A stretch of 64,000 nt of DNA from Spirochaetes bacterium GWE1_32_154. GTDB taxonomy: Bacteria; Spirochaetota; GWE2-31-10. The position numbers were made by a program, and so were the translations under genes. The notes under the pieces are model-generated. The model worked only from the letters and a program-made list of their open reading frames with translations. It made no database searches and was not told where the DNA came from. The first letter of the stretch is position 1, and each line of letters opens with the position of its first letter. The stretch is taken from NCBI GenBank assembly GCA_001829315.1, contig MIAY01000043.1, positions 1 through 64,000 on the forward strand, written 5' to 3'. This document shows positions 3,329-24,641 of the stretch, one piece after another.

Positions 3329-4384
3329 CTATTTCTTAAAATACATACTTAAAAATAAGTCTTTTTGTTTTATAATTATCATTAAATCCAAACGTAATTT
3401 AGGTAAAATTGCAATTCCTGACTTTTTTCCAAGTGTTATAAATCCCATATTACCAGTTGTTGGTTTATATGGTACTGTTTTTTTATTATTTAAAATACGC
3501 TTCATATTAGATACAATATTTTCAGCTTGCAATTTAGCAAATGCCCCTAATTTAATTTCAGGTGTCGAATTTATGTCACCAAGTGCCCATATATTATTAG
3601 ATCCTTTAATTCTCAAATAATCATCAACAACAACTTGATTTTTTTCGTTTATATTCTCGCTAAAATTACGTTGCAAAAATGAGGTTTCATTTAAAACACC
3701 TAAAGACATATATACAACATCTGCGGGTAGTATTTCTCCAGATTTTAATTTAACATAATATCTTCCACTATCACCTTCAACTTGTGCCATCTCATTAAAA
3801 ATAAACTCGACTCCAAGCTTCTTCAAGACTCTTTCAGCCTTCATGCCTACAGATTTTGATAAAGCAGGTAAAAGCCTATTTGTGGAATGTATTAAAGTCA
3901 CTTTTTTTTCAGGATAAACTTCACCTATTTCACCTGCAAGCTCTACCCCAACAGGTCCACCACCTATTATCACAATATTTTTTGATTGCTCTAGTTTTTC
4001 AGACTCTTCAACCCACTGTAATTCTCTTTGTTCAAAAGTTTGAGCATAATTTACTTTTAACTCACTAAAACCTCTAATTTGCGATCCTGTAGCAACAACT
4101 GCATAATCAAACTTTATTTCTTCTCCATTATCTAACAATGCGCTATTTTTATTTAAGGTAGTAAGTTTAGCGTTCACATGCTTATATGAAGTTAAATCGA
4201 TAATACGCCTTCTAATTGTTTTACCAAACTTTTTATCAACAAGCCCCCTCAACGTGGCGTATGGCACTTCAACATAATCTTTTGGCTCGACTATTATAAC
4301 TTCGACATCTAATTTTAACTTTTGTAATTTTTGTATTAATATCAAACCACCCATTCCAACACCAAATACTACTAATTTTTTCAT
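3329..4384 (-). CDS. FAD-dependent NAD(P)H oxidoreductase, NDH-2/FSP1-like
   Basis: This 351-residue protein has two Rossmann folds of the pyridine nucleotide-disulphide reductase class. The FAD-binding motif GVGMGG lies at residues 8-13, the NAD(P)H-binding motif IIGGGPVGVELAGE near 140-153, and the second FAD motif ALGDIN near 267. There is no redox-active CxxxxC pair, which argues against a thioredoxin- or glutathione-reductase role and fits type II NADH dehydrogenase or AIFM2/FSP1-like quinone reductases. No C-terminal membrane anchor is obvious. The start is supported by TAGGAGA upstream. It is the first of several oxygen-response genes on this strand. Electron acceptor unknown; a quinone is an inference. 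Confidence 0.75.
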   Translation of the reverse strand: MKKLVVFGVGMGGLILIQKLQKLKLDVEVIIVEPKDYVEVPYATLRGLVDKKFGKTIRRRIIDLTSYKHVNAKLTTLNKNSALLDNGEEIKFDYAVVATGSQIRGFSELKVNYAQTFEQRELQWVEESEKLEQSKNIVIIGGGPVGVELAGEIGEVYPEKKVTLIHSTNRLLPALSKSVGMKAERVLKKLGVEFIFNEMAQVEGDSGRYYVKLKSGEILPADVVYMSLGVLNETSFLQRNFSENINEKNQVVVDDYLRIKGSNNIWALGDINSTPEIKLGAFAKLQAENIVSNMKRILNNKKTVPYKPTTGNMGFITLGKKSGIAILPKLRLDLMIIIKQKDLFLSMYFKK

Positions 4385-4521
4385 AACTATATCTCCTAAA
4401 GAATCAGCTTTATTAACTTTATGAATAAGATTCGCTCACGAACGACTTGATGCTTTATTGATTTTGTAAGCATATATGATATAGTATTAATCAGAGTATC
4501 CCTTTATAATCTTTTTTTTTA

Positions 4522-4944
4522 CTATTTTCCCAAGGCTTGTTTGATGTCCATGGCATGTTCCTGCTCCATAGCAAGAATAGACCGTAACTGTTGACTCAAG
4601 GCAAACTCTTTAAGCTCTTCGGCCTGATCGATTCGTTCTTTATATCGCTCTATAGCGTCTTCTTCACCTGCGAGATCTTGCTTTAACATTTCATCATTTT
4701 CATCAGCTGTATAAATTTTTCCTACATCAACACTTGGTTTTCCACCTAAAAAATCAATTTGGTCAGCTAAAATCACTGCATGTTGAATTTCTTCAATAGC
4801 GTGAATTTTAAGTTCTTTAATAATATCTCCATAAGCTGCACCAGTCATAACAGCACCATGGTTGATATATTGAATAGCCGCTGAGTATTCAAGTGTTAGA
4901 TCATGATTCAAATTTTCGATAAGTTCTTTCTTTGTAGTTGCCAT
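4522..4944 (-). CDS. Bacterioferritin-type ferritin-like protein
   Basis: A 140-residue four-helix protein. The predicted diiron ligands are E19, E52, H55, E95, E127 and H130, which match the bacterioferritin ligand pattern in type and spacing (ExxH after helix B and after helix D). It would oxidise and store iron or scavenge peroxide in the cytoplasm. The ribosome-binding site AAGGAGG before the ATG is the strongest in this region, suggesting high expression. Neighbours (FAD oxidoreductase, rubrerythrin-like protein, superoxide reductase) fit oxidative-stress defence. Whether it assembles the 24-mer cage and binds haem cannot be read from the sequence. Confidence 0.8.
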   Translation of the reverse strand: MATTKKELIENLNHDLTLEYSAAIQYINHGAVMTGAAYGDIIKELKIHAIEEIQHAVILADQIDFLGGKPSVDVGKIYTADENDEMLKQDLAGEEDAIERYKERIDQAEELKEFALSQQLRSILAMEQEHAMDIKQALGK

Positions 4945-5229
4945 TTGTGGCCTCCTTTTTTGTTAAACTTTAGTAAAATTAGTTCTTAAAATTGTTTATC
5001 AATTCATTCTATTTATTTAAATCTGTGGTTTTTTCAAATAATAGCCTTTTGTCAGATTTATAAATTGTTAACTACATTTCAAATATGGGTTTGTCATTCT
5101 AAATGTAAAATATCTCTAAGATCAATTTATCTATTTCATTTACTATTATTATTTAATTCTTCAAATTATCACTATTAATATCCGGAAAAATATTTAGTTA
5201 TTTTTATTATCGTTCATAATACATACTTC

Positions 5230-5568
5230 TTATAATATTTCGTTAATCTTAGCCGCCATAATAAAATCATTTTGTGAAAGGCCGCCAATCGTATGTGTAC
5301 TTAATTCAATTTTGAGAAACTTATAATTAATCAAGTGTAAATCCGGATGATGGCCTTGTTCTTCGGCGATTTTGGCAATCATATTGATGAAATCAATAGC
5401 TTCCATAAAGTTTTTCATCTTGTATTCACGATACAATAATGTTTCTTCATTCGTTAGTACCCACCCTTCTAGAGAATTAAAAAAGTTTGTCACTTCTATC
5501 TTGCCTAAAGGTTTTTCAGTACCTTCACAAGGCTTGCATGTTTTTGTTGATAAATTATTTTCTTTCAT
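5230..5568 (-). CDS. Pterin-4a-carbinolamine dehydratase
   Basis: A 112-residue protein with the family signature EEQGHHPDLHLINYKFLKIE followed by STHTIGGLSQNDFIMA. The HHP motif, the later tyrosine and the TH..GGL..ND stretch form the active site that dehydrates 4a-hydroxytetrahydrobiopterin. The N-terminal 25 residues contain CKPCEGT, common in the family. Classically it recycles the cofactor of aromatic amino-acid hydroxylases; no such hydroxylase is present in this window, and the family also occurs in organisms lacking one, with proposed roles in pterin or molybdopterin metabolism. It sits between a ferritin and a rubrerythrin-like gene. The start is supported by AGGAGA. Confidence 0.85.
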   Translation of the reverse strand: MKENNLSTKTCKPCEGTEKPLGKIEVTNFFNSLEGWVLTNEETLLYREYKMKNFMEAIDFINMIAKIAEEQGHHPDLHLINYKFLKIELSTHTIGGLSQNDFIMAAKINEIL

Positions 5569-5675
5569 TATTTTTTCTCCTATAGATAATCTTGCAGGGA
5601 CTGTAAATATTTTTTGTTACACGGAACAACAAGATTTTTATGGGAAAAATAACGGTTCAAGCCATGGGCGTCCCC

Positions 5676-6167
5676 TTAATACTCTTCTCTTGTTGTAAAT
5701 TCTGCACTCTCAACCCAGGTTTCCGATCTTGAAACATGAATAATAATATTATCCAGAAGATTATAATGCTTTTCTTCTTCAAGCGCTAACCATTGCAATA
5801 ATGATTTATGTTCCGGCAAACTGGCTTCATCTGCTTTTTCCTGATAAAAGTTTTTGGATTTTAATTCTATTTGCTGAGCTTTTTTGTAAATTGTTAACTG
5901 TTTTTGAGAAATACCTATATCATCATTGTTGATACTAAATTTTTTAATAATATTAATACCACTTTCCAGAACTTTGGTATCTGCAAATGAAGTGTTGTCC
6001 AGATTTTTCACAGCATTCTGAATCGCCTTATAATGTTTTACTTCATCATCAGCCAACATATTTAGAATATTTTTCATCCCTATATTATCAGTTTCATTCA
6101 TTAATTCTCGATATAAGTTCTCGGATTCTTTTACCATGTCTAGTGCAAAATCAAATATATTCATCAT
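5676..6167 (-). CDS. Rubrerythrin-like ferritin-fold diiron protein, no rubredoxin domain
   Basis: A 163-residue helical protein with two related helix pairs. The first carries ESENLYREL and DDEVKHYKAI, the second ELKSKNFYQE and LEEEKHYNLL. The repeated E...ExxH pattern is that of the rubrerythrin-type diiron site. There is no CxxC rubredoxin module, so it resembles the rubrerythrin N-terminal domain alone; electrons for peroxide reduction would have to come from another protein, possibly the rubredoxin-like head of the neighbouring superoxide reductase (inference). A GGAAG ribosome-binding site precedes the ATG. Confidence 0.75.
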   Translation of the reverse strand: MMNIFDFALDMVKESENLYRELMNETDNIGMKNILNMLADDEVKHYKAIQNAVKNLDNTSFADTKVLESGINIIKKFSINNDDIGISQKQLTIYKKAQQIELKSKNFYQEKADEASLPEHKSLLQWLALEEEKHYNLLDNIIIHVSRSETWVESAEFTTREEY

Positions 6168-6224
6168 TTCATACTTCCTAATTCAAACAAAAATTTATAA
6201 CCTGTTACTTACATTAATCAAAAT

Positions 6225-6256
6225 TGATAGTTGTTTAGCTGGCCAAACAACTATCA
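6225..6256. terminator. Hairpin downstream of superoxide reductase gene
   Basis: GATAGTTGTTT (6226-6236) pairs perfectly with AAACAACTATC (6245-6255) around an 8-base loop, just beyond the stop of the minus-strand gene at 6271. The following T-tract on the minus strand (AATTTTGATT) is modest. It probably separates the superoxide reductase transcript from the rubrerythrin-like gene. Confidence 0.65.
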
Positions 6257-6270
6257 GTTAAAAATTTAAA

Positions 6271-6705
6271 TTACAGTTTTTCCTCTTTCATCCAATGACC
6301 GTGAAGATTACACATCTCTACGATCTGCACTTTTGATCCTGTCTCTTTGAGGTGAAATACCACAGAAGGATTAACCATTGGCGTTAACATAATCCGACTC
6401 ACATATTTATGATCAACATAACAATCAATAAATTGGATAAAGTGTTTGTCTTCCATCGGATGCAGAGTTTCACCGATTCTAACCAAAATATCGGTACAAG
6501 GTTTTTCCGGTACCAATCCACATTCTTGCACAACCTGAACTACCGGAATATGTTTTACTGCTCCCTCTTTGCTTTTTTCCATGGCATCAGTAAAAACCGT
6601 ATTATTATTGTCAAATTTATCCTTTGGGGCAAAACAAACTGGACAATTTTCCGGTGCGGCTTCAAACTCAATGTGACCACAAACTTTACAAACATAAATA
6701 CTCAT
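6271..6705 (-). CDS. Superoxide reductase with rubredoxin-like N-terminal domain
   Basis: Residues 1-30 form a short rubredoxin-type zinc or iron knuckle (C6, C9, C21, C24). Residues about 50-140 form the neelaredoxin/desulfoferrodoxin centre II domain: KHIP with H52, HPMEDKH with H82 and H88, and CNLHGHW with C132 and H135, i.e. the four-His one-Cys iron site that reduces superoxide to peroxide. The glutamate that usually precedes the KH pair and serves as sixth ligand is replaced (AVKH); the lysine is kept. The head differs from the desulforedoxin domain of classical desulfoferrodoxin, whose last two cysteines are adjacent. AGGAGA precedes the ATG; the gene is followed by a hairpin. Confidence 0.88.
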   Translation of the reverse strand: MSIYVCKVCGHIEFEAAPENCPVCFAPKDKFDNNNTVFTDAMEKSKEGAVKHIPVVQVVQECGLVPEKPCTDILVRIGETLHPMEDKHFIQFIDCYVDHKYVSRIMLTPMVNPSVVFHLKETGSKVQIVEMCNLHGHWMKEEKL

Positions 6706-6824
6706 ATAACTCTCCTTATAAATTAATTTCTATTGATAATTTGCCAATCTTTATCCCATTCTTCCTCTCAAGCCGATAAAAAAATAACAAATATTAGCCT
6801 AAGTTCCACATTCAACATTATTGT

Positions 6825-7685
6825 TTATTTCATGCTTTCCATGATTTCCTTGATAACACTACTATCACGGTTTCGTCTGTACAAAGGTGTGTTGTCGTTT
6901 TCAAACATCGGAATGTTTTTATTGTATGACACTTTTGAATCTGACTTATAGATTAAGCCCAGTGGCCATGGTTCTCTTTCTAATGACTTTTCAAATGCTT
7001 TTATTTTGTTGGTTGGATCATAATCATTGCCAAGTATGTAAGTATTATCTCTGAACCACTGATTAGTATTTATCTTATTAAACGATACGCACGATTGAAA
7101 AACATCTACTAATGCAAAACCGTCATGTTGTATTGCCTGCTTAATCAGTTCTTTGGTGAGTTCTTTTTCATGGACTGAACTCTTGGCTACAAAAGTTGCT
7201 CCCAGTGAAATAGCCACAGCCAATGGGTTAAAAGGTTCTTCAATTACTCCATCAACTTGTATTGGCGTTTTATGTCCTAATTGCGAAGTAGGAGATGCTT
7301 GACCTTTAGTGAGTCCATATATCATATTATCATGAACAATAACGGTGATATCGGCATTTCTACGGATGTTATGAATAAAGTGATTACCACCTTCTCCATA
7401 CACGTCTCCGTCACCGCTTTGTACTAAAACTTTTAGTTCAGGATTTACCATTTTAATTGCTGCAGCTGCCGGTAAAGCTCTGCCATGTAGTCCATTAAAG
7501 TAACTTGTATTGTAATATTGGGGAGATTTCGCAGCCTGCCCAATACCTGACACCATGCAAAGCTCCTCTTTCTTAAGACCTAAATCAGCATAAGCTTCTG
7601 CTACTATATTTCTCAGTCCAAAATCTCCGCATCCCGGACACCATGCAATATCAACTTCGTTATTCAACCAGTCCTTTTTATCCAT
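6825..7685 (-). CDS. 2-oxoacid:ferredoxin oxidoreductase, beta subunit
   Basis: The 286-residue protein contains CPGCGDFG (residues 16-23), the GDGD...GGNHFIHNIRRN thiamine-diphosphate/Mg2+ motif, and the following MIYGLTKGQASPT segment typical of KorB/PorB. It binds TPP and transfers electrons from oxidative decarboxylation of a 2-oxoacid to ferredoxin, giving an acyl-CoA. Its ATG overlaps the stop of the alpha gene (TAATG) and has GGAGGTG upstream, so the two are co-translated. Substrate (2-oxoglutarate, pyruvate or branched-chain) cannot be fixed from sequence; the two-subunit layout with a fused gamma-alpha chain resembles 2-oxoglutarate enzymes. Confidence 0.88.
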   Translation of the reverse strand: MDKKDWLNNEVDIAWCPGCGDFGLRNIVAEAYADLGLKKEELCMVSGIGQAAKSPQYYNTSYFNGLHGRALPAAAAIKMVNPELKVLVQSGDGDVYGEGGNHFIHNIRRNADITVIVHDNMIYGLTKGQASPTSQLGHKTPIQVDGVIEEPFNPLAVAISLGATFVAKSSVHEKELTKELIKQAIQHDGFALVDVFQSCVSFNKINTNQWFRDNTYILGNDYDPTNKIKAFEKSLEREPWPLGLIYKSDSKVSYNKNIPMFENDNTPLYRRNRDSSVIKEIMESMK

Positions 7686-9370
7686 TATAACACCTCCTTG
7701 ATAGAGTCCATTAACTCTTCAACGGTAAACATCATCCCGTTATATTTTAATATTTTGTGATCAAAATTAATACCTGTTTCCAGTTTAATCAGATCCCCAA
7801 ACTGTCCGGTCTGATTATTTTCAACAAGGATGAGTTTTTTTGATTTTTTCAGTAGAGATTCGGTGTCTTTATGCAAAGGATATACTTGTGAAAAATGAAG
7901 CATTGCCGTTTTTGAATTATTTATTTTATCAATAGCCTCGGCAATCATGTGATAGGTGGATCCCCATGCAACAATTAAGTTTTCATAATTTTCGGGTCCA
8001 TATAATTCGGGTCTGCATGAGTTTTCTTTGATAAGTTCAATTTTTTTGAATCTTTTGTTTTTCATTGCTATGCAGATTCCATCTAAGTCCTCAGTTATTC
8101 TGCCATTCTCATCATGTTCATCTGAATCAGAACAAACAAAACCGGAACCAAATCCAGGAATTCCTCTCGGAGAGACACCTGAATCAGTAATTATATATCT
8201 CTGATAGTTATCATTTGTTTTGACTATGTGTCTGTCGATTTTTATTTTATCAAGGTCAAATGCTGGTGTATCGTAAAAAGTATCAACAAAATACTGATCT
8301 GTGAGGATTATAACAGGAATCTGATATTGATCGGCGTGATTAAACGCTCTGCATGCAAGTTCAAATGCCTGTTGTGTTGTACCCGGTGCATATATGGCTC
8401 TTGGAAATACTCCGTGACCTGTATAAAGTGCAAGATTTAAATCTCCCTGTTCGGTTCTGGTTGGAAGCCCTGTCGCCGGACCCGGTCTTTGTGCAATATG
8501 GATTACCAGTGGAGATTCAGTCATACCCGCAAGACTCATTCCTTCTGTCATAAGGGCAAAACCGCCTCCTGAAGTTGAAACAATAGGACGGGCACCTGCA
8601 TACCAGCCTGCTACTGCCATATTTACAGCTGCTATCTCATCTTCTGTTTGCTCAATCAATATGCCTGCTTTGTGTGAGTATGTCGCCAAGGCGGTAAATA
8701 CACTTGTTCCAGGTGACATCGGATATGCAAATGCACAGTCGCATCCACCAGCTATAGCACCAAGGGCTATTGCGTCGGTGCCTGAAATCATGAAGTTATC
8801 AAGTTTTGTCTCCGGCTTGCATACATCAAGAGTGATAATTTTTTTAGAAACCAGATTTGTGCCAATCTCGTATCCACTTTCTGCGGCCTGTGCATTTTTA
8901 TCTGCTATTTCATCGCCTTTTTTAGCAAATATATCTTTTATAAAATTTAAAACTTCATTGCGATTCAGATTCATCAGTCCACTCACAAGTCCAACGGCAA
9001 CTGAATTTACATACAATGCATTGCCAAATTCTGTAGCAATCTGTTGAAAAGATACATCAATGACTCTTTCGTTCTCAAGTTTCTTTTTGTCACCAATTAT
9101 AATGGTTTCATCTGAAATCCTGTCTTTTAAGTGTGAAAAAGCAGCTTTTTCAAATGGAATTAATATATCAATATGTTTAACAAATGCTTTCACTTCATCA
9201 CATGACACTCTGATTGAAATTGAATTTACACCACCCCGTACACGTGACATGTATTCTTTAGTAGCGTACACGCGATATCCTGTTTTTTTTAATAAAGCCA
9301 GGAGAACTTTTTCTACTGAGTTAATACCTTGTCCCGCTTCTCCTGACAGTACAATAGATAGGTCATTCAT
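7685..9370 (-). CDS. 2-oxoacid:ferredoxin oxidoreductase, fused gamma-alpha subunit
   Basis: The 561-residue chain starts with the gamma domain (residues 1-180; GEAGQGINSVEKVL and SRVRGGVNSISIR). The alpha domain follows: SGTDAIALGAIAGGCDCAFAYPMSPGTSVF, then EDEIAAVNMAVAGWYAGARP, and a TPP-fold PYR-like region ending in a C-terminal transketolase-like segment (VAWGSTYHMI). With the beta subunit it makes low-potential reduced ferredoxin or runs in reverse as a carboxylating enzyme. No ferredoxin-like cysteine clusters are seen in either chain, so an external ferredoxin is needed. The ATG has GGGGGT upstream. It is the first gene of a two-gene operon. Confidence 0.88.
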   Translation of the reverse strand: MNDLSIVLSGEAGQGINSVEKVLLALLKKTGYRVYATKEYMSRVRGGVNSISIRVSCDEVKAFVKHIDILIPFEKAAFSHLKDRISDETIIIGDKKKLENERVIDVSFQQIATEFGNALYVNSVAVGLVSGLMNLNRNEVLNFIKDIFAKKGDEIADKNAQAAESGYEIGTNLVSKKIITLDVCKPETKLDNFMISGTDAIALGAIAGGCDCAFAYPMSPGTSVFTALATYSHKAGILIEQTEDEIAAVNMAVAGWYAGARPIVSTSGGGFALMTEGMSLAGMTESPLVIHIAQRPGPATGLPTRTEQGDLNLALYTGHGVFPRAIYAPGTTQQAFELACRAFNHADQYQIPVIILTDQYFVDTFYDTPAFDLDKIKIDRHIVKTNDNYQRYIITDSGVSPRGIPGFGSGFVCSDSDEHDENGRITEDLDGICIAMKNKRFKKIELIKENSCRPELYGPENYENLIVAWGSTYHMIAEAIDKINNSKTAMLHFSQVYPLHKDTESLLKKSKKLILVENNQTGQFGDLIKLETGINFDHKILKYNGMMFTVEELMDSIKEVL

Positions 9371-9383
9371 CGTTTACCCCCTT

Positions 9384-9797
9384 TTAATATTTCGATATAT
9401 TTAAGTTATTTCTGAGGTTCGAATAGTTTACGTAATAATTTGATAAAATTTCTTTTTTTAAAAGCTTCCACATTCTTTCAATTAAATTGAAATTTGGGGA
9501 GTAAGTAGGTAAAAATATTTTTCTATGATTGATATTTGCGTTATATAAAAATAAGATTATTTTCTTCAGCTGAGAGTTATCTTCGATAATTCTTTCTATT
9601 CTTCCTATTTTATATTTACTAATAATTTCACTGATATAATGATGACTTACTAATAAGGTTACTCTAATCTTGAGCCAAGACCACCCTTTACCCCATAAAA
9701 GAAGAGATTTAATTATGTCTTCTACGGCTTTTTCCTTCATCACAGAATGAAATCGAGTTAAATATAAAATTTCTTCCTCTGTTAATTTATTTTCCAT
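9384..9797 (-). pseudogene. IS630-type transposase with internal deletion
   Basis: The 137-residue frame joins two ends of an IS630/Tc1-like transposase. Residues 1-75 resemble its N-terminal helix-turn-helix region (WSWLKIRVTLLVSHHYISEI). Residues about 90-137 carry the C-terminal block FLPTYSPNFNLIERMWKLLK, which holds the last catalytic glutamate. The middle, with the first two catalytic aspartates (about 200 residues), is gone and the joint is in frame. It is inactive as a transposase, although the DNA-binding part could still be made. It ends 14 bp before the oxidoreductase alpha gene. Confidence 0.75.
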
Positions 9798-10101: not shown

Positions 10102-11340
10102 ATGAAAATTATCAATACATCTGTTATAATTATAGGTGCAGGTCCAATCGGACTTTTACTTGCTAACCTTTTAGGTAAAGAGAATATAGAAACTGTAATT
10201 ATAGACAAAAAAAAAGAGTTTGATAAGTACTCAAAAGCTATTGGTATTATGCCCCCAAGCTTTAAAATCCTAAAAGATTTAAATATTCTGGATAAATTTT
10301 TAGATCATGGTGTAAAAGTAAAAAGAGCTGTAATACATGGGTCTAAATATACTTTAGGTGATATCACTTTTAAAGGTATAAAAAAATTTGAGTGCATTTT
10401 ATCAAATCCACAAAATTTAACAGAGAATATTCTTTTTGATAATCTAAAAACATACAAGAGTGTTACAGTCTGTTTTGGCCATGAACTTAAAAAAGTAATT
10501 AATAATGATAATAATGTTGAAATGTCAGTTTTAGATATTGATAAGAATGAAGAAGTTATTATAAAAGCTGATATTGCAGTCGCATGTGATGGTGGTAAAA
10601 GTACTACTCGTAATGAATTAAATATAGACTTTATTGGCAAGCGATACAAAGACACATTTGTTATGGGGGATTATATTGATAAATCAGATTTAGGAAGTGA
10701 TGCTCATTTATTTTTTACAAAACATGGTGCTGTTGAGTCATTTCCGCTCAATGATGGTAAAAGACGGTGGGTTGTGCAAACAGAACAATTTATGTCTGAA
10801 AGGGAAAATGATTTTATCGAAGAAAAAGTTCTTGCAAGGACTGGAATTAAACTTGAGGTTAAGAACCGGATATCAGACAGTCCCTTTGGAGTGCAGCATT
10901 ATATAATAAAATCATACTCAAAAAACAGGGTAATATTTTGTGGAGATGCGGCACATTTAATGTCACCAATAGGCGGACAGGGAATGAACACCGGTTTTGC
11001 TGATGTTGAGTTTACTTTTAAAATTGTAAAGCGCTTTTTAAAAGATAAAGATCAAGAAGTTTTTAACTTACTCTTAAAACGTTACGATTTTTACCGTAGA
11101 AAAGCAGCAAAAGAGGCTATCTTAAGAGCTTCATTATCAATGTGGATTGGGACTATAAAGGGAGGAGTGAGATCTTTAATCAGGAATATAAACATTTTCA
11201 TGTCGCTTCATAGCCCTTTAAAGCTCTATATTCCTATATTTTTTGCAATGATGACAATAAAATATCACAATGTAGCTAAAATAAATAAAAAAGACTTACA
11301 ACTTCTCGAATGTTATGATCTCGATGAAACCGAAAAATAG
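10102..11340 (+). CDS. FAD-dependent aromatic monooxygenase
   Basis: The 412-residue protein is a group A flavoprotein hydroxylase of the p-hydroxybenzoate hydroxylase fold. It has the N-terminal GAGPIG dinucleotide motif, the internal ACDGGKSTTR (DG motif) near residue 170, and CGDAAHLMSPIGGQGMNTG (GD motif plus FAD ribityl contacts) near 280. Such enzymes use NAD(P)H and O2 to hydroxylate activated aromatic rings. The ATG at 10102 is preferred to an upstream in-frame start because of GGAG just before it and because it begins right before the Rossmann strand. It faces a UbiE-like methyltransferase and lies near a type III PKS, which suggests ring hydroxylation of a polyketide phenol (inference). 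Its 3' end overlaps the convergent gene by 45 bp. Confidence 0.8.
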   Translation: MKIINTSVIIIGAGPIGLLLANLLGKENIETVIIDKKKEFDKYSKAIGIMPPSFKILKDLNILDKFLDHGVKVKRAVIHGSKYTLGDITFKGIKKFECILSNPQNLTENILFDNLKTYKSVTVCFGHELKKVINNDNNVEMSVLDIDKNEEVIIKADIAVACDGGKSTTRNELNIDFIGKRYKDTFVMGDYIDKSDLGSDAHLFFTKHGAVESFPLNDGKRRWVVQTEQFMSERENDFIEEKVLARTGIKLEVKNRISDSPFGVQHYIIKSYSKNRVIFCGDAAHLMSPIGGQGMNTGFADVEFTFKIVKRFLKDKDQEVFNLLLKRYDFYRRKAAKEAILRASLSMWIGTIKGGVRSLIRNINIFMSLHSPLKLYIPIFFAMMTIKYHNVAKINKKDLQLLECYDLDETEK

Positions 11341-12036
11341 AATTTTTGACTTTAAATTTTTAAACCCGGTTCCTTCTATTATTTTTTTTAGTTCTTCTCT
11401 CTCTGGATAAAGTTGTAAACTATCTGCAATATAAGCATATATTTCACTGTTACCGTGTAGAATAACCCCCCATAGACTACCCCAAAATCGTAAGAAAAAA
11501 AGTTGCATTTTTTGTATTAATCTAACTTTTGATTTAGAGAAATCAAGGAATGCACATTTCCCCCCCTGCTTTGTGACTCTATATATTTCTTTTATTACAT
11601 TAGGTATGTTTGGTGCATTACGAAGTGCGTAACTTCCTGTAACGATATCGTATGAATCATCTGGTTTTTTTGTATTACACATATCGCCTTTCTCAAAAAA
11701 CATATTTCCTGAAAAGACCTTATATCTTTTTAAAGATATTTTTAGCATTTCGTCATTTAAATCAAAACCAGTAATATTAGCATTGTTATAGTTATTATAA
11801 AGCATATATGTAATATCGCCTGTTCCGCATGCCAGGTCAAGGCATGTTTCTACACCGCTTGCAGGTAATTCTTTAATAAGTAATTTCTTCCAAGCGATAT
11901 CCCGGCCAAAAGAGAGGACTCTAGTTACAAAATCATATCTAGGGGCAACTATATCAAATAATTTTTCATTGTACTCTTTTTTACTAATACTATCTTTGAG
12001 GTTGAAATTTTTTACTTTTAATTTATTGTTTTGCAT
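11296..12036 (-). CDS. UbiE/MenG-like C-methyltransferase
   Basis: A class I SAM-dependent methyltransferase with the motif LDLACGTGD (motif I), a following GFDLNDEML and the family pattern Y-D-IVTGSYALRNAPN, then VTKQGGKCAFLDFSKS. This is the layout of UbiE/MenG/COQ5, which C-methylate the ring of demethylmenaquinone or benzoquinols. The start at 12036 has AAAGGA upstream, unlike a further ATG at 12081. It may be the housekeeping menaquinone enzyme, but its place between a ring hydroxylase and ACP/ketosynthase genes suggests a tailoring role on a polyketide ring (inference). The 3' end overlaps the monooxygenase gene. Confidence 0.75.
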   Translation of the reverse strand: MQNNKLKVKNFNLKDSISKKEYNEKLFDIVAPRYDFVTRVLSFGRDIAWKKLLIKELPASGVETCLDLACGTGDITYMLYNNYNNANITGFDLNDEMLKISLKRYKVFSGNMFFEKGDMCNTKKPDDSYDIVTGSYALRNAPNIPNVIKEIYRVTKQGGKCAFLDFSKSKVRLIQKMQLFFLRFWGSLWGVILHGNSEIYAYIADSLQLYPEREELKKIIEGTGFKNLKSKILFFGFIEIITFEKL

Positions 12037-12238
12037 TTTTAATCCTTTTTTGAATTTGTATAACACATCGCTTAATTTCATATGATAATGTTAGGTAATG
12101 GTTTTTTTATGTCCTTAATAGCCATTATAAATTTATATAATAATAAATATAGTAAAAAATAAAAAAATCATATTTTTTTTTATTAATTCATTTTTTTATA
12201 TATAATATAAATGGTAAAAAAATAAAAAAGAGGTTTAT
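12037..12238. promoter_or_regulatory. Divergent promoter region of the biosynthetic cluster
   Basis: A 202-bp, very AT-rich spacer between divergent methyltransferase and ACP genes must hold both promoters. TATAATATAAA just upstream of the ACP gene (near 12201-12211) is a good -10-like sequence. AAAGAGG precedes the ACP ATG. No clear operator palindrome was seen. Confidence 0.4.
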
Positions 12239-12487
12239 ATGTCAGAAAAAAATAGTGATACATTTGAGAAAGTAAAAGAGATAATCTCTCAGGTATTACG
12301 TGATGATTTGGATATAAAATATGAAAGTCACTTACAGGAAGATCTAGGTGCTGAATCCATTGATATAATGTCATTATTAATAGAATTTGAAGATCAGTTT
12401 GGTAAAGAGATTCCGGATGAAGATATTCCCAAGTTATTAACTGTCGGAAATATTGTCCAGTATATAGATGCGAACTTAAAAGATTAA
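12239..12487 (+). CDS. Acyl carrier protein, cluster-dedicated
   Basis: An 82-residue acidic helical protein with the phosphopantetheine site DLGAESID (Ser40) in place of the commoner DSLD/DSLE form. The four-helix pattern and the C-terminal TVGNIVQYIDANL match the ACP family. It lies 56 bp upstream of a ketosynthase and near a type III PKS, so it most likely carries the acyl starter or intermediate of that pathway rather than bulk fatty-acid synthesis (inference). No phosphopantetheinyl transferase gene is present in the window. Confidence 0.85.
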   Translation: MSEKNSDTFEKVKEIISQVLRDDLDIKYESHLQEDLGAESIDIMSLLIEFEDQFGKEIPDEDIPKLLTVGNIVQYIDANLKD

Positions 12488-12543
12488 TAAAGTATAGTAG
12501 GGCACTTTATCTCTAGATTAGTCAGTATCAAAAAAGGTGAAAA

Positions 12544-13905
12544 ATGAACCGAAGAGTAGTTGTAACAGGATTAGGTGCTGTTTCTTCAAATGGAATAGGT
12601 GCTGAAGAGTTTTTTAATAATTGTTTAAACGATAAAGTAAATGTACAGTATATTCCCGATCAATGGAGAAAGTATTCTAGTTTTAACTGCGGTATTTGGT
12701 CTCCTTTAATTGAGCCTGACTATTCAAAGTATGGTATTACAGATATTGAAAAGAAACAATTTGATAAAACGACATTACTTGCTCTTTATTCGACATTTGA
12801 GGCTTTAGATCATGCAGGTGTAAAATACAGTTTAGTTGATAAAAAACGAGGGTCCTATAGTATTGATAATGTAGATCCATTTAAAGTTGGAGTTGTTATT
12901 GGTACTGGTATTGGCGGAGTAGAAAGTCTTATTAGCTCATATTCGTTTCAGATTTTAAATAATGCAAAAAAAAAGCTTAATGATATCAAAAATGACAATC
13001 CGGGTATTGCAGATGATGTACAAAATGTCGATGACCTTTTAATTAAAGCCAAGCGTTTTAGTCCATTTGCAGTCTCTATGATTATGGGAAATGCTTCTGC
13101 TGCTAATATAGGGATTAGATTTGGATTAAATGGTATGAATAAAACAGTATCAGCAGCATGTGCATCAGGTACAGCTGCAATAGGTTATGCTTATGAAGCC
13201 GTTAAGAGTGGTAAATTAGATATGGCAGTGTCAGGTGGTGTTGAATATTTATATGATGAATACGGAGGATTGTACTTTGGTTTTGATTCATTAAAAGCCT
13301 TATGTAGGGCAGGTGATATTATAGAAGAGGCTAATAGACCATTTGATAAAGCGAGAACTGGTTTTTTATATAGCCAGGGAGGCTCCGGCATCTTAATCCT
13401 CGAAGATTATGATAGTGCAATAAAACGTGGTGCAACAATCCATGCAGAGATAAAGTCTTTTGCAGAAACAAATGATGCACACAATATAATGATGATAGAA
13501 AAATCCGGTAAATGTATCGAAAGAGTAATTGTTGATGTTATGAAGCAGGCCGGAATTCAACCAAAAGAAGTGGATTATATAAATACTCACGGTACAGCAA
13601 CTGAGCTTAATGATGAGGTAGAGTCAGCTGCAATAGAAAAAATTTTTGGGGATAAAGTATTAATTAACTCAACAAAATCACTTATAGGGCATAGTTTTGG
13701 AGCATCTGGTGCATTAGAAGCAGTCATAAGCGTGATGTCGATTACAAAAAAGAAAGTTCATTTAAATAGAAATATTAAAGACCCGGTAAGAGATTTAAAT
13801 TTTGTAAGAGAGTCAACAGATGCTCATATAAAAACGGTGTTAAGTGAATCATTTGGTTTTGGTGGTCATAATACTGCAATTATTTTTACTGAAGTACAAA
13901 GCTAA
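12544..13905 (+). CDS. Beta-ketoacyl-ACP synthase, FabF-like
   Basis: A 453-residue thiolase-fold enzyme. The catalytic triad is Cys206 (SAACASG), His349 (NTHGTAT) and His383 (IGHSFGASG), with the C-terminal FGFGGHN loop. These are the residues of condensing KAS II type enzymes, so it should be active. An insert of about 40 residues after residue 130 makes it longer than housekeeping FabF (about 410). It is co-directional with the ACP and meets the next gene tail to tail with a 4-bp overlap of stop codons. It probably elongates or primes the acyl chain handed to the type III PKS. Confidence 0.85.
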   Translation: MNRRVVVTGLGAVSSNGIGAEEFFNNCLNDKVNVQYIPDQWRKYSSFNCGIWSPLIEPDYSKYGITDIEKKQFDKTTLLALYSTFEALDHAGVKYSLVDKKRGSYSIDNVDPFKVGVVIGTGIGGVESLISSYSFQILNNAKKKLNDIKNDNPGIADDVQNVDDLLIKAKRFSPFAVSMIMGNASAANIGIRFGLNGMNKTVSAACASGTAAIGYAYEAVKSGKLDMAVSGGVEYLYDEYGGLYFGFDSLKALCRAGDIIEEANRPFDKARTGFLYSQGGSGILILEDYDSAIKRGATIHAEIKSFAETNDAHNIMMIEKSGKCIERVIVDVMKQAGIQPKEVDYINTHGTATELNDEVESAAIEKIFGDKVLINSTKSLIGHSFGASGALEAVISVMSITKKKVHLNRNIKDPVRDLNFVRESTDAHIKTVLSESFGFGGHNTAIIFTEVQS

Positions 13906-14618
13906 GTTTTGCCAACAACACACAATCTGGCAGGAAGATGTTGCTTAACAAACAGTTTTGCTTTACTTTTTTGTATATGATTGGTTAGTTCATGTTTCGT
14001 AAAACCTTTTTGGATTGATAGTCTGCCATCATAAAATGCAAAACTCTTTTTTATAAAAAGAGCAGTAAAAAGTGTATATCCAAAGTATGCTAAATTAGAT
14101 CTTTTTAAATCATTTAATACCATGACATTGTTACAAGATTCTGAAATTATACTTAATAATGATGGAATAGATTGATCATCTATATGGTGCAAAAAGTGAT
14201 TTGTAAAAATATAGTCAAACTTACCGTGTAATTTTAAATCAAATGCGTTACCGTGTATTACTTTTATATCCGGAAAATTTTTGCAAACTTTTATCGCATA
14301 CTCAGTAATTCTTTCATCAGAATCAATGCAAGTAATAGAAGCTTTAATGCCAATTTTTTTGCATTTTTTTAAAAACCATATAGGTATGTCACAGCCGCCC
14401 GCCCCAATATCTAAAAAGTTGACTTCACTTATTTTTCTTTTTTTTATATCTGTAAAAATATATTTGTTTATTAAAGAATTTGATGAAGAAAATAACATAT
14501 TTAAAAGTCTAAATTGCGCAACAGTTTTAATCAATTTTTCTGTATCACAGTCTTCAAAGTCCATAAGTTCTTTTTTTGTTGAGCGAATTTTCATGTTTGG
14601 AAATAAAAAACTAAACAT
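13902..14618 (-). CDS. Class I SAM-dependent methyltransferase
   Basis: A 238-residue protein with motif I as FLDIGAGGCDIP, an acidic CIDSD end of strand 2 and HGNAFDLKL before TNHFLHHIDD. Methyltransferases of this kind frequently sit next to type III PKS genes in bacteria, as in the Streptomyces srs operon, where the partner methylates the alkylresorcinol product. The start overlaps the PKS stop (TAATG), implying translational coupling and a shared pathway. Whether it acts on oxygen or carbon cannot be told. The 3' end overlaps the ketosynthase stop. Confidence 0.8.
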   Translation of the reverse strand: MFSFLFPNMKIRSTKKELMDFEDCDTEKLIKTVAQFRLLNMLFSSSNSLINKYIFTDIKKRKISEVNFLDIGAGGCDIPIWFLKKCKKIGIKASITCIDSDERITEYAIKVCKNFPDIKVIHGNAFDLKLHGKFDYIFTNHFLHHIDDQSIPSLLSIISESCNNVMVLNDLKRSNLAYFGYTLFTALFIKKSFAFYDGRLSIQKGFTKHELTNHIQKSKAKLFVKQHLPARLCVVGKT

Positions 14619-15721
14619 TATACTTTTTCCATTATTGCTGTTTCTATTGTTAAACCAGGGCCAAAACCTGCTGAAAATATTTTGCCTGATTTGCTACTAT
14701 TTAAAACTTCATTTAATACAAACATAATAGTACTTGAGCTCATGTTTCCATAATTCCAAAGTATATCGTAAGAGTGTTGCAAATCTGTTTTTTTTAAATC
14801 CATAGTAGCACTAAATTTCTCGAGTATAGCTTTTCCGCCTGGGTGCACGGCCCAAATGCTAATATCTTTTTGTGTTATATTTGCTTTATTAAATAAATCA
14901 TCCATTACTCCACCAATATGCTGGTCTATTATTTTAGGCACGTAACTGGAGAGTTTCATATCAAAACCGTGTTCACCGATCTTCCACGCCATATCACTTT
15001 CACTATTATCAGTATAATGGGAGTGGAATGTATTAAATATAATTTTAGAACCTTCGGAGTCACTTTCATTTGATGATATAAGGTACGCTGCTACACCATC
15101 TGCAAATAATGCATTTGCTACAATTGTATCGGTATCAAACTTCTTTTGATAGTGCAGTGAGCATAGTTCAACATTAACAACCAAAACTCGAGCTTCAGGA
15201 TCGGCTTTACAGATACTGGAAGCAAGTTTCATTGCAGGGAAAGCAGCGTAACATCCCATAAAACCTATATTAAATCGATCAACACTCTTTTTTAATTGCA
15301 ACTCTTTTACAAGATGGAAGTCAAATCCCGGAGCTGCAAAACCAGTACAACTTACTGTAATAACATGAGAGATCTTATCTTTTACTCCAAAAGCACATGT
15401 ATCAAGTAATTTTTTTACTGCTTTAAGAGAAAGTGAATTTGATTCAGTAATAAATAAATCATTTCTTTTCATGGTAGAAGGTTCTGGTTCCAAGTCCTCA
15501 CTTTGAGGATAAAATTCGTGTTCGGAATAGTGTTTATCAAAATCAGAAATTACAGAATGACGTTTATGTATTGCTGTATCTTTATAAATTTTATCTAAGA
15601 AAAGTTTTTTCTTAGATGTGTCGCATAAAAGTTTAGTTTGATATTTAAGAGCAAAATCTTGTGTGTAATAAAAATCAGGAACCACTGTTGCTATTTTATG
15701 TAAATATACTTTATTATTCAT
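14618..15721 (-). CDS. Type III polyketide synthase
   Basis: A 367-residue chalcone/stilbene synthase-fold homodimeric enzyme. The complete Cys-His-Asn triad is present: Cys157 (GFMGCYAAF), His293 (AVHPGGKAIL) and Asn326 (NYGNMSSST), together with the C-terminal signature GFGPGLTIE. The enzyme condenses an acyl starter with malonyl-CoA to give a pyrone, resorcinol or phloroglucinol. A dedicated ACP and KS nearby suggest a long-chain acyl starter, as in the Azotobacter ars system (inference). The start has AAGGAAA upstream, and the gene is translationally coupled to the methyltransferase after it. Product unknown. Confidence 0.9.
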   Translation of the reverse strand: MNNKVYLHKIATVVPDFYYTQDFALKYQTKLLCDTSKKKLFLDKIYKDTAIHKRHSVISDFDKHYSEHEFYPQSEDLEPEPSTMKRNDLFITESNSLSLKAVKKLLDTCAFGVKDKISHVITVSCTGFAAPGFDFHLVKELQLKKSVDRFNIGFMGCYAAFPAMKLASSICKADPEARVLVVNVELCSLHYQKKFDTDTIVANALFADGVAAYLISSNESDSEGSKIIFNTFHSHYTDNSESDMAWKIGEHGFDMKLSSYVPKIIDQHIGGVMDDLFNKANITQKDISIWAVHPGGKAILEKFSATMDLKKTDLQHSYDILWNYGNMSSSTIMFVLNEVLNSSKSGKIFSAGFGPGLTIETAIMEKV

Positions 15722-15730
15722 TTAATTTCC

Positions 15731-16528
15731 TTAGTTGTATTTAGTTAAAAGATTTTTGATTTTATCAAATTGTTCAATGTCTCTCGCAGATGGATCAGTT
15801 AAGCTGTTAAATACTTTAACTCCATTATCCAAAATAGACTTAACAAGTTCTCGGTCGTCTAATTTAATTGATTCGTAGCCGTTTATTCCTTGTTTTTTTG
15901 CAAGTACTTCTTTATTAGAGGCTTTCCAATTGCGTTTATATAATGCGTCTGCGGCATCATGTATAAAAGTTAAATTATTAGGATCATATTTTAATGCATC
16001 ACTATAAAAAAGCCCCATTTTAAATTTATCTCCACCAAATAACGAAGGTACTTCTTCTTCAATCTTTGCTTTTAAAAGATAAGCTAAACTTAAAGATGGG
16101 TCTAATTGAAGTGCTCTATCAGTGAGTTCTTTTAATCTGGATAAATTCCCCAAAGACTCTATAATTCCGATCGCTCTGCCTCTTGATCCAAAATTTGCTG
16201 CGTAAAAAAATATAATCTTAGCCTGATCATTTTTATTTCCATAAGTAATATTAAGATAGGGTTCTACAATATCCATAGCTTTTGTGTAAGCCTCAATTTT
16301 TTCTGATCTTTTTGTTTGAGGTATTAACTCCGCAACTTCAAAAAGCTCTCTTGACATTCTCCATAAAATTTGTGGATCAGGATCATTAATATCAAATGCT
16401 TTTTGTAATGAATCATGAGCTTGTGTGTGTTGCCCTTTGTGATTTAACACGTCAATTATATTAAGATCAATCGAAAACAAATTAAATGCAATAGTAAAAC
16501 ATATAAAAAAATATATAATTTTATTCAT
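15731..16528 (-). CDS. Exported helical-repeat (TPR-like) protein
   Basis: The 265-residue protein begins with a signal peptide (MNKIIYFFICFTIAFNLFS) without a lipobox cysteine. The rest is made of helical hairpins resembling TPRs (for example PDPQILWRMSRELFEVAEL and LSLAYLLKAKIEEEVPSLFG). The WRMSRE...A pattern and the later FYAANFGSRGRAIGI stretch resemble the bacterial relatives of the RMDN TPR family. It lies 9 bp before the PKS gene in the same direction, so it is probably co-transcribed and could help move or place the lipid product in the periplasm (inference). No enzymatic motif is seen. Confidence 0.6.
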   Translation of the reverse strand: MNKIIYFFICFTIAFNLFSIDLNIIDVLNHKGQHTQAHDSLQKAFDINDPDPQILWRMSRELFEVAELIPQTKRSEKIEAYTKAMDIVEPYLNITYGNKNDQAKIIFFYAANFGSRGRAIGIIESLGNLSRLKELTDRALQLDPSLSLAYLLKAKIEEEVPSLFGGDKFKMGLFYSDALKYDPNNLTFIHDAADALYKRNWKASNKEVLAKKQGINGYESIKLDDRELVKSILDNGVKVFNSLTDPSARDIEQFDKIKNLLTKYN

Positions 16529-16910: not shown

Positions 16911-17330
16911 TTACTCATTTATAATCCTCTTAGATAACCATTGAAGCTGTTTTCCAATACTTAAACCTAACATTGGAATTTTATAATATTTAAGATGTGA
17001 GAGTAAAAATTTTCTGTAATTATTTCCAGCCAAAAAGATGAATTCATCATGTTCAATTTCTGTCGATTTCTTAAGTTGGTTTAATACGAAATTTGCCCGC
17101 TCTTTTTTTTCATTAGAATGCATTTTATTGAGAGTCATATCATAAGGTTCAATTATTTCATTTAATCTCAACAAACCATATTTAGCAGAAAGAATGAAAA
17201 TTTTATCAGGATTTTGAGATTTTGCATATTGAAGATTCTTCTGGAAGAGTGGGCTTACATACAAATCTTGAGCTTTTGTTTTGTAATTAAGTTTTTTACT
17301 GACACATGAAATCAATATTATAGTTCCCAT
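16911..17330 (-). CDS. DUF6884/YaaA-like protein
   Basis: A 139-residue protein opening with ISCVSKK and followed by AQDLYVSPLFQKNLQYA, then ILSAKYGLL and EPYDMTL. This combination defines the DUF6884 group, distantly related to YaaA-type proteins. Members are common in mobile islands and cassette arrays; some sit near DNA-modification genes. Its function is unproven. The start, with AAAGGG upstream, lies only about 24 bp after the right-hand end of the attC-like site, as expected for the first gene of an integron cassette. Confidence 0.7.
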   Translation of the reverse strand: MGTIILISCVSKKLNYKTKAQDLYVSPLFQKNLQYAKSQNPDKIFILSAKYGLLRLNEIIEPYDMTLNKMHSNEKKERANFVLNQLKKSTEIEHDEFIFLAGNNYRKFLLSHLKYYKIPMLGLSIGKQLQWLSKRIINE

Positions 17331-18186: not shown

Positions 18187-18502
18187 TCACCTCAAACCAA
18201 TACTCTCATTCGCCTGCAATATAGCTCTATCAAATTCTCTATAACTATACTTCAAATAAATAAGCGTATTCTGAATAGATGAATGCCCCAAAAATTTCTG
18301 CACCTTGACTATATCCACACCGGATTCCAATAATTGAATAGCCCTTGTATGTCTCCAAGCCCTGGTCGTAATGAGTACATTACTGCCCGGGTATGCCTCA
18401 TAAATGACAATGTGTCTACTCCCTGGCAATTCCTAACCTGTCACAATCCACTTTCAACATTTTATCAAACGACTGCCGAATTAATGGTTTCGCACTTTCA
18501 AT
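18187..18502 (-). pseudogene. Tyrosine recombinase remnant, frameshifted
   Basis: One frame (about 18502-18433) reads SAKPLIRQSFDKMLKVDCDR and ends at a TAG; it resembles the start of a phage-type integrase catalytic domain. A second frame (18429-18187) contains WRHTRAIQLLESG and LGHSSIQNTLIYLKY, i.e. the catalytic arginine, the LGH motif and the nucleophilic tyrosine region. The two parts look like one recombinase broken by a frameshift, with the N-terminal DNA-binding domain lost. The histidine of the usual HxxR is not evident (RAWR). It is not recognisably an IntI integrase. Inactive; it marks past mobility beside the attC-like site. Confidence 0.65.
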
Positions 18503-23720: not shown

Positions 23721-24563
23721 TTAGAGTTTTTCAATATCAACAATTGAAAGTCCGGTAGCTTTGGAAATAATATCTACAGTTACACCAAGTCTCTTGAAGT
23801 TTTTAGCATCTTCAATTTTACCTTCAAGCTTGCCTTTTTGAATGCCTTCCTGCATTGCTTCGTCAAGACCAGTATTGTAATCGAGTTGCCATATTTCGCG
23901 ACGTAGTGCTTTATCCCGAAGTCTTTCATCATTGTTAAATTTTTTGAAAAGTGAATGTGCCTTACGAATCTCAGGATCATTATTAAGTAGTAATGTCATT
24001 TTGTCCTCCTCTTTACCTTCATATTTAAAAAAGGTAAGCCATTTGTCGAGATGTGCTTCCACAAGTCCCGGCTGAATATATTTTTTCAGTTCAATAAAGT
24101 GCATTTCAAGATGATCGGTTAGTAGATATTCCGGATTGTCTTTTTCGAGGAGCATAAAGCAACTATGAATTTTTGTAGCATCAGGGAACATTTTAAAGTT
24201 AACAAGATTAATGCATATCACCGGATGAAGAGTAGTATATGTTTCTTTTTGTTTAATTTGTGTTGCATACAGTCGTGCCCAGTAGTACAAAGATCGTTGT
24301 GCAAAAGATTTTTCATCCCTCACTTGTATTTCTATGTCGTACAAGCGGTTGTTGTTATCAACAGCTTTGATGTCGAGCACCGTTTCTTTATCAAACCGGT
24401 ATTTTTTTATGTTTACAAGGTTTTTAACTTTTGCAGAATGAATCGTTGTAAACTTTGAGTCTAAAAGAACGCCATTAATAAATGAAACAAGGAGATCCTC
24501 ATTTTCTTCATTACCAAGAAGATACAGTATAAAAAGGTCATTGAGTGCCGTAATTGATTTCAT
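23721..24563 (-). CDS. Rpn-family recombination-promoting nuclease
   Basis: The start at 24563 gives a 280-residue protein opening with KSITALNDLFILYLLGNEEN. The PD-(D/E)XK site is seen as VLDIKAVDNNNRLYDIEIQV, with D and E-x-Q as metal ligands, followed by QRSLYYWARLYATQI. The C-terminus has the helical TVDIISKATGLSIVDIEKL motif seen at the end of the Rpn gene at the window start. A TTG at 24599 could extend it by 12 residues. It lies next to the single CRISPR repeat. The core looks intact. Confidence 0.85.
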   Translation of the reverse strand: MKSITALNDLFILYLLGNEENEDLLVSFINGVLLDSKFTTIHSAKVKNLVNIKKYRFDKETVLDIKAVDNNNRLYDIEIQVRDEKSFAQRSLYYWARLYATQIKQKETYTTLHPVICINLVNFKMFPDATKIHSCFMLLEKDNPEYLLTDHLEMHFIELKKYIQPGLVEAHLDKWLTFFKYEGKEEDKMTLLLNNDPEIRKAHSLFKKFNNDERLRDKALRREIWQLDYNTGLDEAMQEGIQKGKLEGKIEDAKNFKRLGVTVDIISKATGLSIVDIEKL

Positions 24564-24641
24564 AAAAAAAATAATACTGTAAAATGGAGATAAAGGCAAG
24601 ATTATTTTTATCCTATAATACCGGGAATCAGCACTTGCAAG

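Follow-up and report, generated by a model that had tools for sequence, protein, structure and literature searches.

A cluster of seven genes at positions 10102-16528 of the stretch of Spirochaetes bacterium GWE1_32_154 DNA analysed here probably serves the biosynthesis and placement of a methylated long-chain alkyl-benzoquinol, with its own starter supply and a periplasmic carrier (the probability is put at about 0.6). The stretch, called the window below, comprises positions 1 to 64,000 of contig 43 (MIAY01000043.1) of a 4.03 Mb genome that is 97.6% complete. The sequence itself shows that the genes are there, that their active sites are intact and that their association is conserved. The steps that would lead to a quinol are predicted from a type III polyketide synthase (PKS), from a Coq5-like methyltransferase that accompanies it, and from the company that both keep in other genomes.

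The gene cluster

10102..11340, + strand: FAD-dependent aromatic monooxygenase (PHBH/UbiH-like), predicted ring hydroxylase, 412 aa from ATG (PF01494, motifs)
11296..12081, - strand: UbiE/Coq5-like C-methyltransferase of a PKS-linked subfamily, predicted quinol ring C-methylase (TIGR01934, Coq5 4obw match)
12239..12487, + strand: free-standing acyl carrier protein (ACP) (PF00550, Ser40 in GAESI context)
12544..13905, + strand: FabF-like ketosynthase (KS) (PF00109/PF02801, C206-H349-H383)
13902..14618, - strand: class-I S-adenosylmethionine methyltransferase (PRK06202-like), predicted phenol O-methylase (NF004851, sub-cut-off; DIGAG motif)
14618..15721, - strand: type III PKS, predicted long-chain alkylresorcinol synthase (PF00195/PF02797, C157-H293-N326, W246, M255)
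15731..16528, - strand: exported TPR/RMDN-like helical protein, predicted periplasmic lipid carrier (homologues beside PKS, model fold)

An open reading frame check and family searches found all seven frames intact at these coordinates, with most family scores well over the cut-offs. The preliminary description of the window had recognised a type III PKS with a Cys157-His293-Asn326 triad amid six named neighbours, and this stands. Strands alternate within the cluster and the convergent pairs overlap slightly (11296-11340 and 13902-13905); because of the alternation there must be several transcription units, not a single operon. A scan for promoters and terminators gave no signals in excess of those in shuffled sequence. 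The monooxygenase matches FAD_binding_3 (PF01494) with 169.8 bits and has the motifs GAGPIG, DGGKS and GDAAH. The second methyltransferase (13902..14618), which has a DIGAG motif, scores 152 bits with NF004851, under the model cut-off of 243.

A predicted alkylresorcinol synthase

The product of 14618..15721 has the CHS fold and Cys-His-Asn triad of type III PKSs, and matches the N and C domains of Chal_sti_synt (PF00195/PF02797) with 81.2 and 97.7 bits. A four-sequence PKS alignment scanned against one genome per species gave 80 loci, and in the residue survey of these relatives the triad C157/H293/N326 is invariant (80/80). Equally invariant is Trp at position 246, which is L266 in PKS18 and G256 in CHS. 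The choice between Trp and Gly at ArsB 281/ArsC 284 decides between resorcinol and pyrone (PMC6274091). ArsC 284 and 293 were placed at CHS 256 and 265 by equal spacing, via CHS/PKS18 numbering and not an ArsB alignment, and on that placement W246 is the Trp expected of an aldol-closing alkylresorcinol synthase. Position 255 (CHS 265) is Met in 78/80 relatives. Met at this position is typical of the HidC clade, for which use of acyl-ACP has been proposed, though the authors of that study doubt that the residue sets specificity. Of the tunnel residues, A24, C125 and C187 fit A52, S143 and C205 of PKS18, and Y191 and H190 differ from its A209 and N208. The enzyme is a predicted long-chain alkylresorcinol synthase.

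That the enzyme would make alkylpyrones, as does its closest solved relative PKS18, is highly improbable. PKS18 is the nearest solved sequence and is among the nearest folds to the structure model (predicted local distance difference test, pLDDT, 94.7; the other neighbours include the M. marinum PKS and Steely1), but it has Leu at the ArsB Trp281/ArsC Gly284 switch position where W246 stands here, and the accompanying tailoring enzymes are of kinds that work on phenol or quinol rings. The alkylresorcinol- or alkylquinone-type chemistry proposed in the preliminary description is, as a prediction, borne out by this Trp and by the hid/planctomycete-like layout of the core genes.

Conservation of the gene set

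The spirochaete-type set comprises 31 distinct contigs, counting that of the window (a few of them have been given other phylum labels and are possibly mis-binned). Its gene order is monooxygenase>, <UbiE, PKS>, methyltransferase>, often then <TPR. The class-I methyltransferase comes immediately after the PKS in 29/31, the monooxygenase adjoins the PKS in 24 of the 25 that reach far enough in that direction, the UbiE-like gene recurs beside the PKS in 24/31 and a TPR homologue does so in 18 distinct contigs. KS and ACP are present in two, the window and a second locus, L050. Each of these two holds all seven genes, arranged in different orders. Their PKSs are sisters in the PKS tree (support 0.92), and UbiE occurs in each half of the spirochaete clade. 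Although gene order has changed, the content is conserved with few losses across the 31 contigs, and since the set recurs in some 30 distinct contigs it is more than a chance grouping. Conservation elsewhere, the lack of which would have told against the preliminary proposal, holds for the block of monooxygenase, UbiE, PKS and methyltransferase in about 30 contigs, and does not for KS and ACP. A close PKS (54-59% identity) is found in just three others among 198 relatives, and the cluster is therefore patchy. Locus L096, of Alkalispirochaeta alkalica, has the PKS, monooxygenase, methyltransferase and TPR genes; no UbiE gene was found at it, and its product would be expected to be without the C-methyl group.

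Runs of PKS, methyltransferase and monooxygenase are also found in Balneolaceae, in Microbacteriaceae/Micrococcaceae (Actinobacteria) and in Deinococci, and one Verrucomicrobiota contig has a PKS with an MMPL-family protein and UbiE. [In the Verrucomicrobiota loci L106 (8690-13957) and L109 an FAD monooxygenase and a type III PKS are accompanied by an MMPL-family protein, and in L106 also by UbiE; this is apparently an association with UbiE and an exporter separate from the spirochaete one.]

The Coq5-like methyltransferase

The UbiE-like enzyme matches Ubie_methyltran with 138.2 bits and TIGR01934 with 176.7 bits, over the cut-off of 158.35. It passes the UbiE/MenG family model, and has the catalytic Arg, but falls below the equivalog cut-offs for UbiE/MenG proper. 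Its only PDB sequence match at E<=1e-10 is yeast Coq5 (4obw). Coq5 methylates 2-methoxy-6-polyprenyl-1,4-benzoquinol, with Arg201 the proposed general base, and this Arg (RN motif) is kept in all PKS-linked UbiE members covering that site. The PKS-linked enzymes differ from Coq5 in having T for N and D for H in the first signature, and YA for FG before the Arg-Asn pair. Judged by these residues the enzyme is of a distinct PKS-linked subfamily, and the alterations would be fitting for a dedicated substrate.

In ordinary ring numbering a 5-alkylresorcinol, once O-methylated and hydroxylated para to its free phenol, is a 2-methoxy-6-alkyl-1,4-benzoquinol. The predicted intermediate would be the Coq5/UbiE substrate with alkyl for polyprenyl, and this agreement between predicted intermediate and enzyme family is the argument that weighs most for the pathway. 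The likeness to the UbiE/Coq5 of ubiquinone biosynthesis lies in the subfamily model passed, the catalytic Arg and the predicted ring substitution, whereas the alkyl tail instead of a polyprenyl one and the changed signature residues set the spirochaete subfamily apart.

The gene could instead be the cell's demethylmenaquinone methyltransferase for scavenged precursors, with some other cause for its position next to the PKS. The genome has no better UbiE-type match (138 bits), no MenD above cut-off and no MqnA, and an operon on contig 36 has MenA-like, NDH-2-like and polyprenyl diphosphate synthase genes. Against this, the PKS-linked members share their signature changes relative to Coq5 and adjoin the PKS in 24/31 contigs, and a menaquinone role is judged very unlikely. 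Participation in de novo menaquinone synthesis was rejected, as MqnA is missing and so is MenD (a 76-bit match has general domains of thiamine pyrophosphate enzymes). Salvage of menaquinone precursors through the MenA-like gene of contig 36 is conceivable. [At that locus, L160 8573-12396, the MenA-like prenyltransferase, NDH-2-like flavoprotein and polyprenyl diphosphate synthase-like genes are in a row, the last two labels being partly by eye; the run suggests precursor salvage or another aromatic acceptor.]

The proposed pathway

At the start ACP and KS would carry a fatty acyl chain, lengthen it or do both, and hand it to the type III PKS; relatives without the pair would draw the starter from general acyl-ACP or acyl-CoA. 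Addition of three malonyl units by the PKS, with aldol ring closure, would then yield a 5-alkylresorcinol, and for this step the case is strong. The class-I methyltransferase would cap one phenol and the monooxygenase would hydroxylate para to the other, giving 2-methoxy-6-alkyl-1,4-benzoquinol. C-methylation by the UbiE-like enzyme, as by Coq5 on the polyprenyl analogue, would give 2-methoxy-5-methyl-6-alkyl-1,4-benzoquinol. In the last and weakest step the exported TPR protein may ferry the lipid across the periplasm, with the quinol/quinone serving as a redox lipid of the envelope or a membrane. Operons with this arrangement of genes yield C15/C17 alkylresorcinols in a heterologous host (PMC10896814).

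The product might alternatively be an alkylresorcinol, or its ethers, that acts as a structural envelope lipid and not as a redox quinone. Azotobacter has alkylresorcinols among the lipids of its membranes and cysts (PMC4824345), an exported TPR protein adjoins the genes, and the planctomycete oxidoreductase gave no quinones in its test host (PMC10896814). However, conservation with the PKS extends to both the monooxygenase and the UbiE-like enzyme, the ring on which UbiE/Coq5 chemistry acts is a quinol, and relatives have an NDH-2-like neighbour. A purely structural product is accordingly held to be rather unlikely.

Ketosynthase and acyl carrier protein

The ACP matches PP-binding (PF00550) with 45.8 bits, and the KS matches ketoacyl-synt N and C (PF00109/PF02801) with about 102 bits each. 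Residues C206, H349, K378 and H383 of the KS are present, and some 40 aa are inserted ahead of residue 169. The window KS is 48% identical to that of L050, which also has the insert and the active residues, and 29-34% identical to the other KSs of its own genome; the window ACP shares 44% identity with the one next to the PKS in that relative (genome G004). The KS subfamily (E<=1e-80) is found in 2/393 spirochaete genomes, both copies beside this PKS and each with an ACP next to it. As the two PKSs are sisters, a single acquisition of the pair is the simplest account.

Bulk fatty-acid synthesis, which the preliminary description had named among the findings that would speak against its proposal, is excluded for the pair: the genome holds a separate FabF at C34 (549.5 bits, over cut-off) and other ACPs such as C20. 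A type II PKS was also ruled out, since the single KS has an active Cys206 and there is no KS-beta/chain-length factor. The pair is best read as a dedicated, lineage-specific accessory.

KS and ACP may be unrelated passengers, or have a separate small fatty-acid function, with the PKS drawing on general acyl-CoA or acyl-ACP. Most clusters are without the pair, so other lineages run the pathway without it, and the KS stands without reductive partners. Restriction of the KS subfamily to two genomes, in both beside the PKS with its ACP adjacent, and its retention through cluster rearrangement argue the other way, and the passenger account, though a possibility to be reckoned with, is doubtful. 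The pair had been put forward as a different supply route. It is probably a dedicated pair beside a PKS, but one confined to a lineage (2/31 contigs), and since ACP-fed type III PKSs are known (ArsA-ArsB/C, germicidin synthase, and CylB-CylI, in which CylI is reached via type I PKSs) the route is not a new principle. The emphasis earlier given to KS and ACP is overdrawn; more is told by the dedicated UbiE subfamily, by the NDH-2 genes linked to the cluster in relatives and by the TPR protein with its likeness to lipid carriers.

[KSs also occur at two other loci. At L068 1027-11700 on contig 29 there is a megasynthase of about 3,560 aa that contains no fewer than two KS and three ACP domains, and at L066 6963-10460 on contig 26 another FabF-like KS is beside an apparent short-chain dehydrogenase and a desaturase-like flavoprotein, possibly a second lipid cluster.]

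The exported TPR protein

At E<=0.001 Pfam gives no match for the protein of 15731-16528 itself. Its family alignment identifies it as TPR, with RMD1-3 matched by six of 14 members. The model (pLDDT 91.8) consists of helices throughout, with an N-terminal hydrophobic helix at residues 2-18. The best natural PDB match of the family profile is PTPIP51/RMDN3 (7cc7; E 1.8e-13), with BstC (7t1s) also listed, and the model superposes on BstC and PTPIP51 with TM-scores of 0.58-0.68. The TPR domain of PTPIP51 transfers phosphatidic acid in vitro, and BstC binds sterols. On the modelled fold a periplasmic lipid carrier is the best guess, with a TatT/TPAT-type transport protein, of similar fold, as an alternative identity. 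Inclusion of an envelope-directed exported protein in the set, as first proposed, is upheld by the presence of the TPR gene in 18 distinct contigs.

Relation to known systems

The closest layout is that of hidABC (hierridins, cyanobacteria) and planctomycete operons, which have the same adjacency of type III PKS, methyltransferase and FAD/oxidoreductase and give long-chain alkylresorcinols (PMC10896814, PMC8086630); the comparison is by layout, not HidABC sequences. Met at CHS-265 is common to the HidC clade and the spirochaete PKSs, and HidC is the proposed acyl-ACP user. The spirochaete set has in addition a dedicated UbiE-like C-methylase, an exported TPR protein and, in the window, ACP and KS; its strands alternate.

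In srsABC of Streptomyces griseus the same logic of PKS, methyltransferase and flavin hydroxylase takes alkylresorcinol to alkylquinone. To this extent the srs precedent cited earlier is apt, but SrsB is an isoprenylcysteine carboxyl methyltransferase, whereas here there are a class-I methyltransferase and a UbiE-like enzyme; since the second methyltransferase is of another family than SrsB, membership of the srs type was ruled out. The agq system of Actinoplanes missouriensis (alkyl-O-dihydrogeranyl-methoxyhydroquinones) likewise proceeds from a type III PKS alkylresorcinol to hydroxylation (PMC10896814), but it prenylates the product and the spirochaete cluster is without a prenyltransferase.

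Azotobacter arsABCD shows that acyl-ACP can pass a chain directly to a type III PKS, and shares the Trp switch for resorcinol. There the chain comes from the ACP domain of ArsA, a fatty acid synthase; here the ACP is free-standing with a single KS, and no type I fatty acid synthase subunits are beside the PKS within the cluster. In the cyl/cab paracyclophane clusters a free-standing ACP (CylB) starts a chain that ends on a type III PKS (CylI), with type I PKS extension and halogenation and without a FabF-like single KS. The mycobacterial polyketide quinones, as related in PMC10896814, are type III PKS-derived alkylquinones that reportedly act as electron carriers in low oxygen; they belong to a different phylum, and UbiE-type C-methylation and NDH-2 linkage are spirochaete features.

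Redox context and surroundings

An NDH-2-like flavoprotein gene is within about 3 kb of the PKS in L070 and in L080-L082. In a search of the genome, cytochrome bd, COX1 and MqnA gave no matches and MenD none above cut-off, the 76-bit match being another thiamine pyrophosphate enzyme. With all four missing, a polyketide quinone as redox lipid is plausible. The mycobacterial report (Anand et al. 2015, as conveyed in PMC10896814) places such electron carriers in oxygen-poor niches. The redox role is plausible but unproven. The Pyr_redox_2 protein at 3329-4384 was not counted as a cluster NDH-2 because it is weakly alike, with just 21-24% identity to the cluster-linked NDH-2 genes.

[Before the cluster, window 3329-9370 is an oxygen-defence island of desulfoferrodoxin, rubrerythrin, ferritin-like, pterin dehydratase and Pyr_redox_2 genes, beside a two-gene 2-oxoacid:ferredoxin oxidoreductase. 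A remnant IS630-family transposase (9384-9797) is immediately upstream of the cluster, and other signs of mobile DNA around it are a DUF6884 protein (16911-17330), an integrase-like fragment (18187-18429) and a PD-(D/E)XK transposase-family gene (23721-24599).]

Weighing the quinol pathway

Several observations tell against a methylated alkyl-benzoquinol as the product. FAD monooxygenases of this class need O2, yet the organism is a probable anaerobe with neither of two terminal-oxidase families in its genome. The NDH-2 gene of the relatives' type is not in the window's own cluster. UbiE is missing from 7/31 spirochaete-type contigs; KS and ACP are missing from 29/31, and are therefore dispensable in general, and reductive partners (ketoreductase, dehydratase, enoyl reductase) were not found with the cluster KS. 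The PKS tunnel is only partly PKS18-like, with Y191/H190 for A209/N208 and Tyr bulkier than Ala. The assignment of O- and C-methylation to the two methyltransferases is by inference, as is the site of hydroxylation, and the G. maris methyltransferase is probably a C-methylase (PMC10896814). The literature searched contains no such lipid product from any spirochaete.

Implications

A wider proposal may be made, tentative and as a whole unlikely, that in spirochaetes in which no de novo menaquinone route is seen a type III PKS and a Coq5-like enzyme make a fatty-acid-derived, ubiquinone-like benzoquinone, which would be reduced by NDH-2-type enzymes (linked in some relatives), be moved by an RMDN-like periplasmic carrier and form a quinone pool for redox balance or radical defence. 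The KS/ACP pair offers a compact system for studying how ACP-bound starters reach a type III PKS. If the quinol pathway is correct, the conserved cluster is explained and has a concrete target mass, and the idea that polyketide quinones can carry electrons, as has been reported for mycobacteria, becomes testable in a distant phylum. Ubiquinone-type chemistry would then have a second, polyketide origin, with a fatty-acid tail replacing the isoprenoid one.

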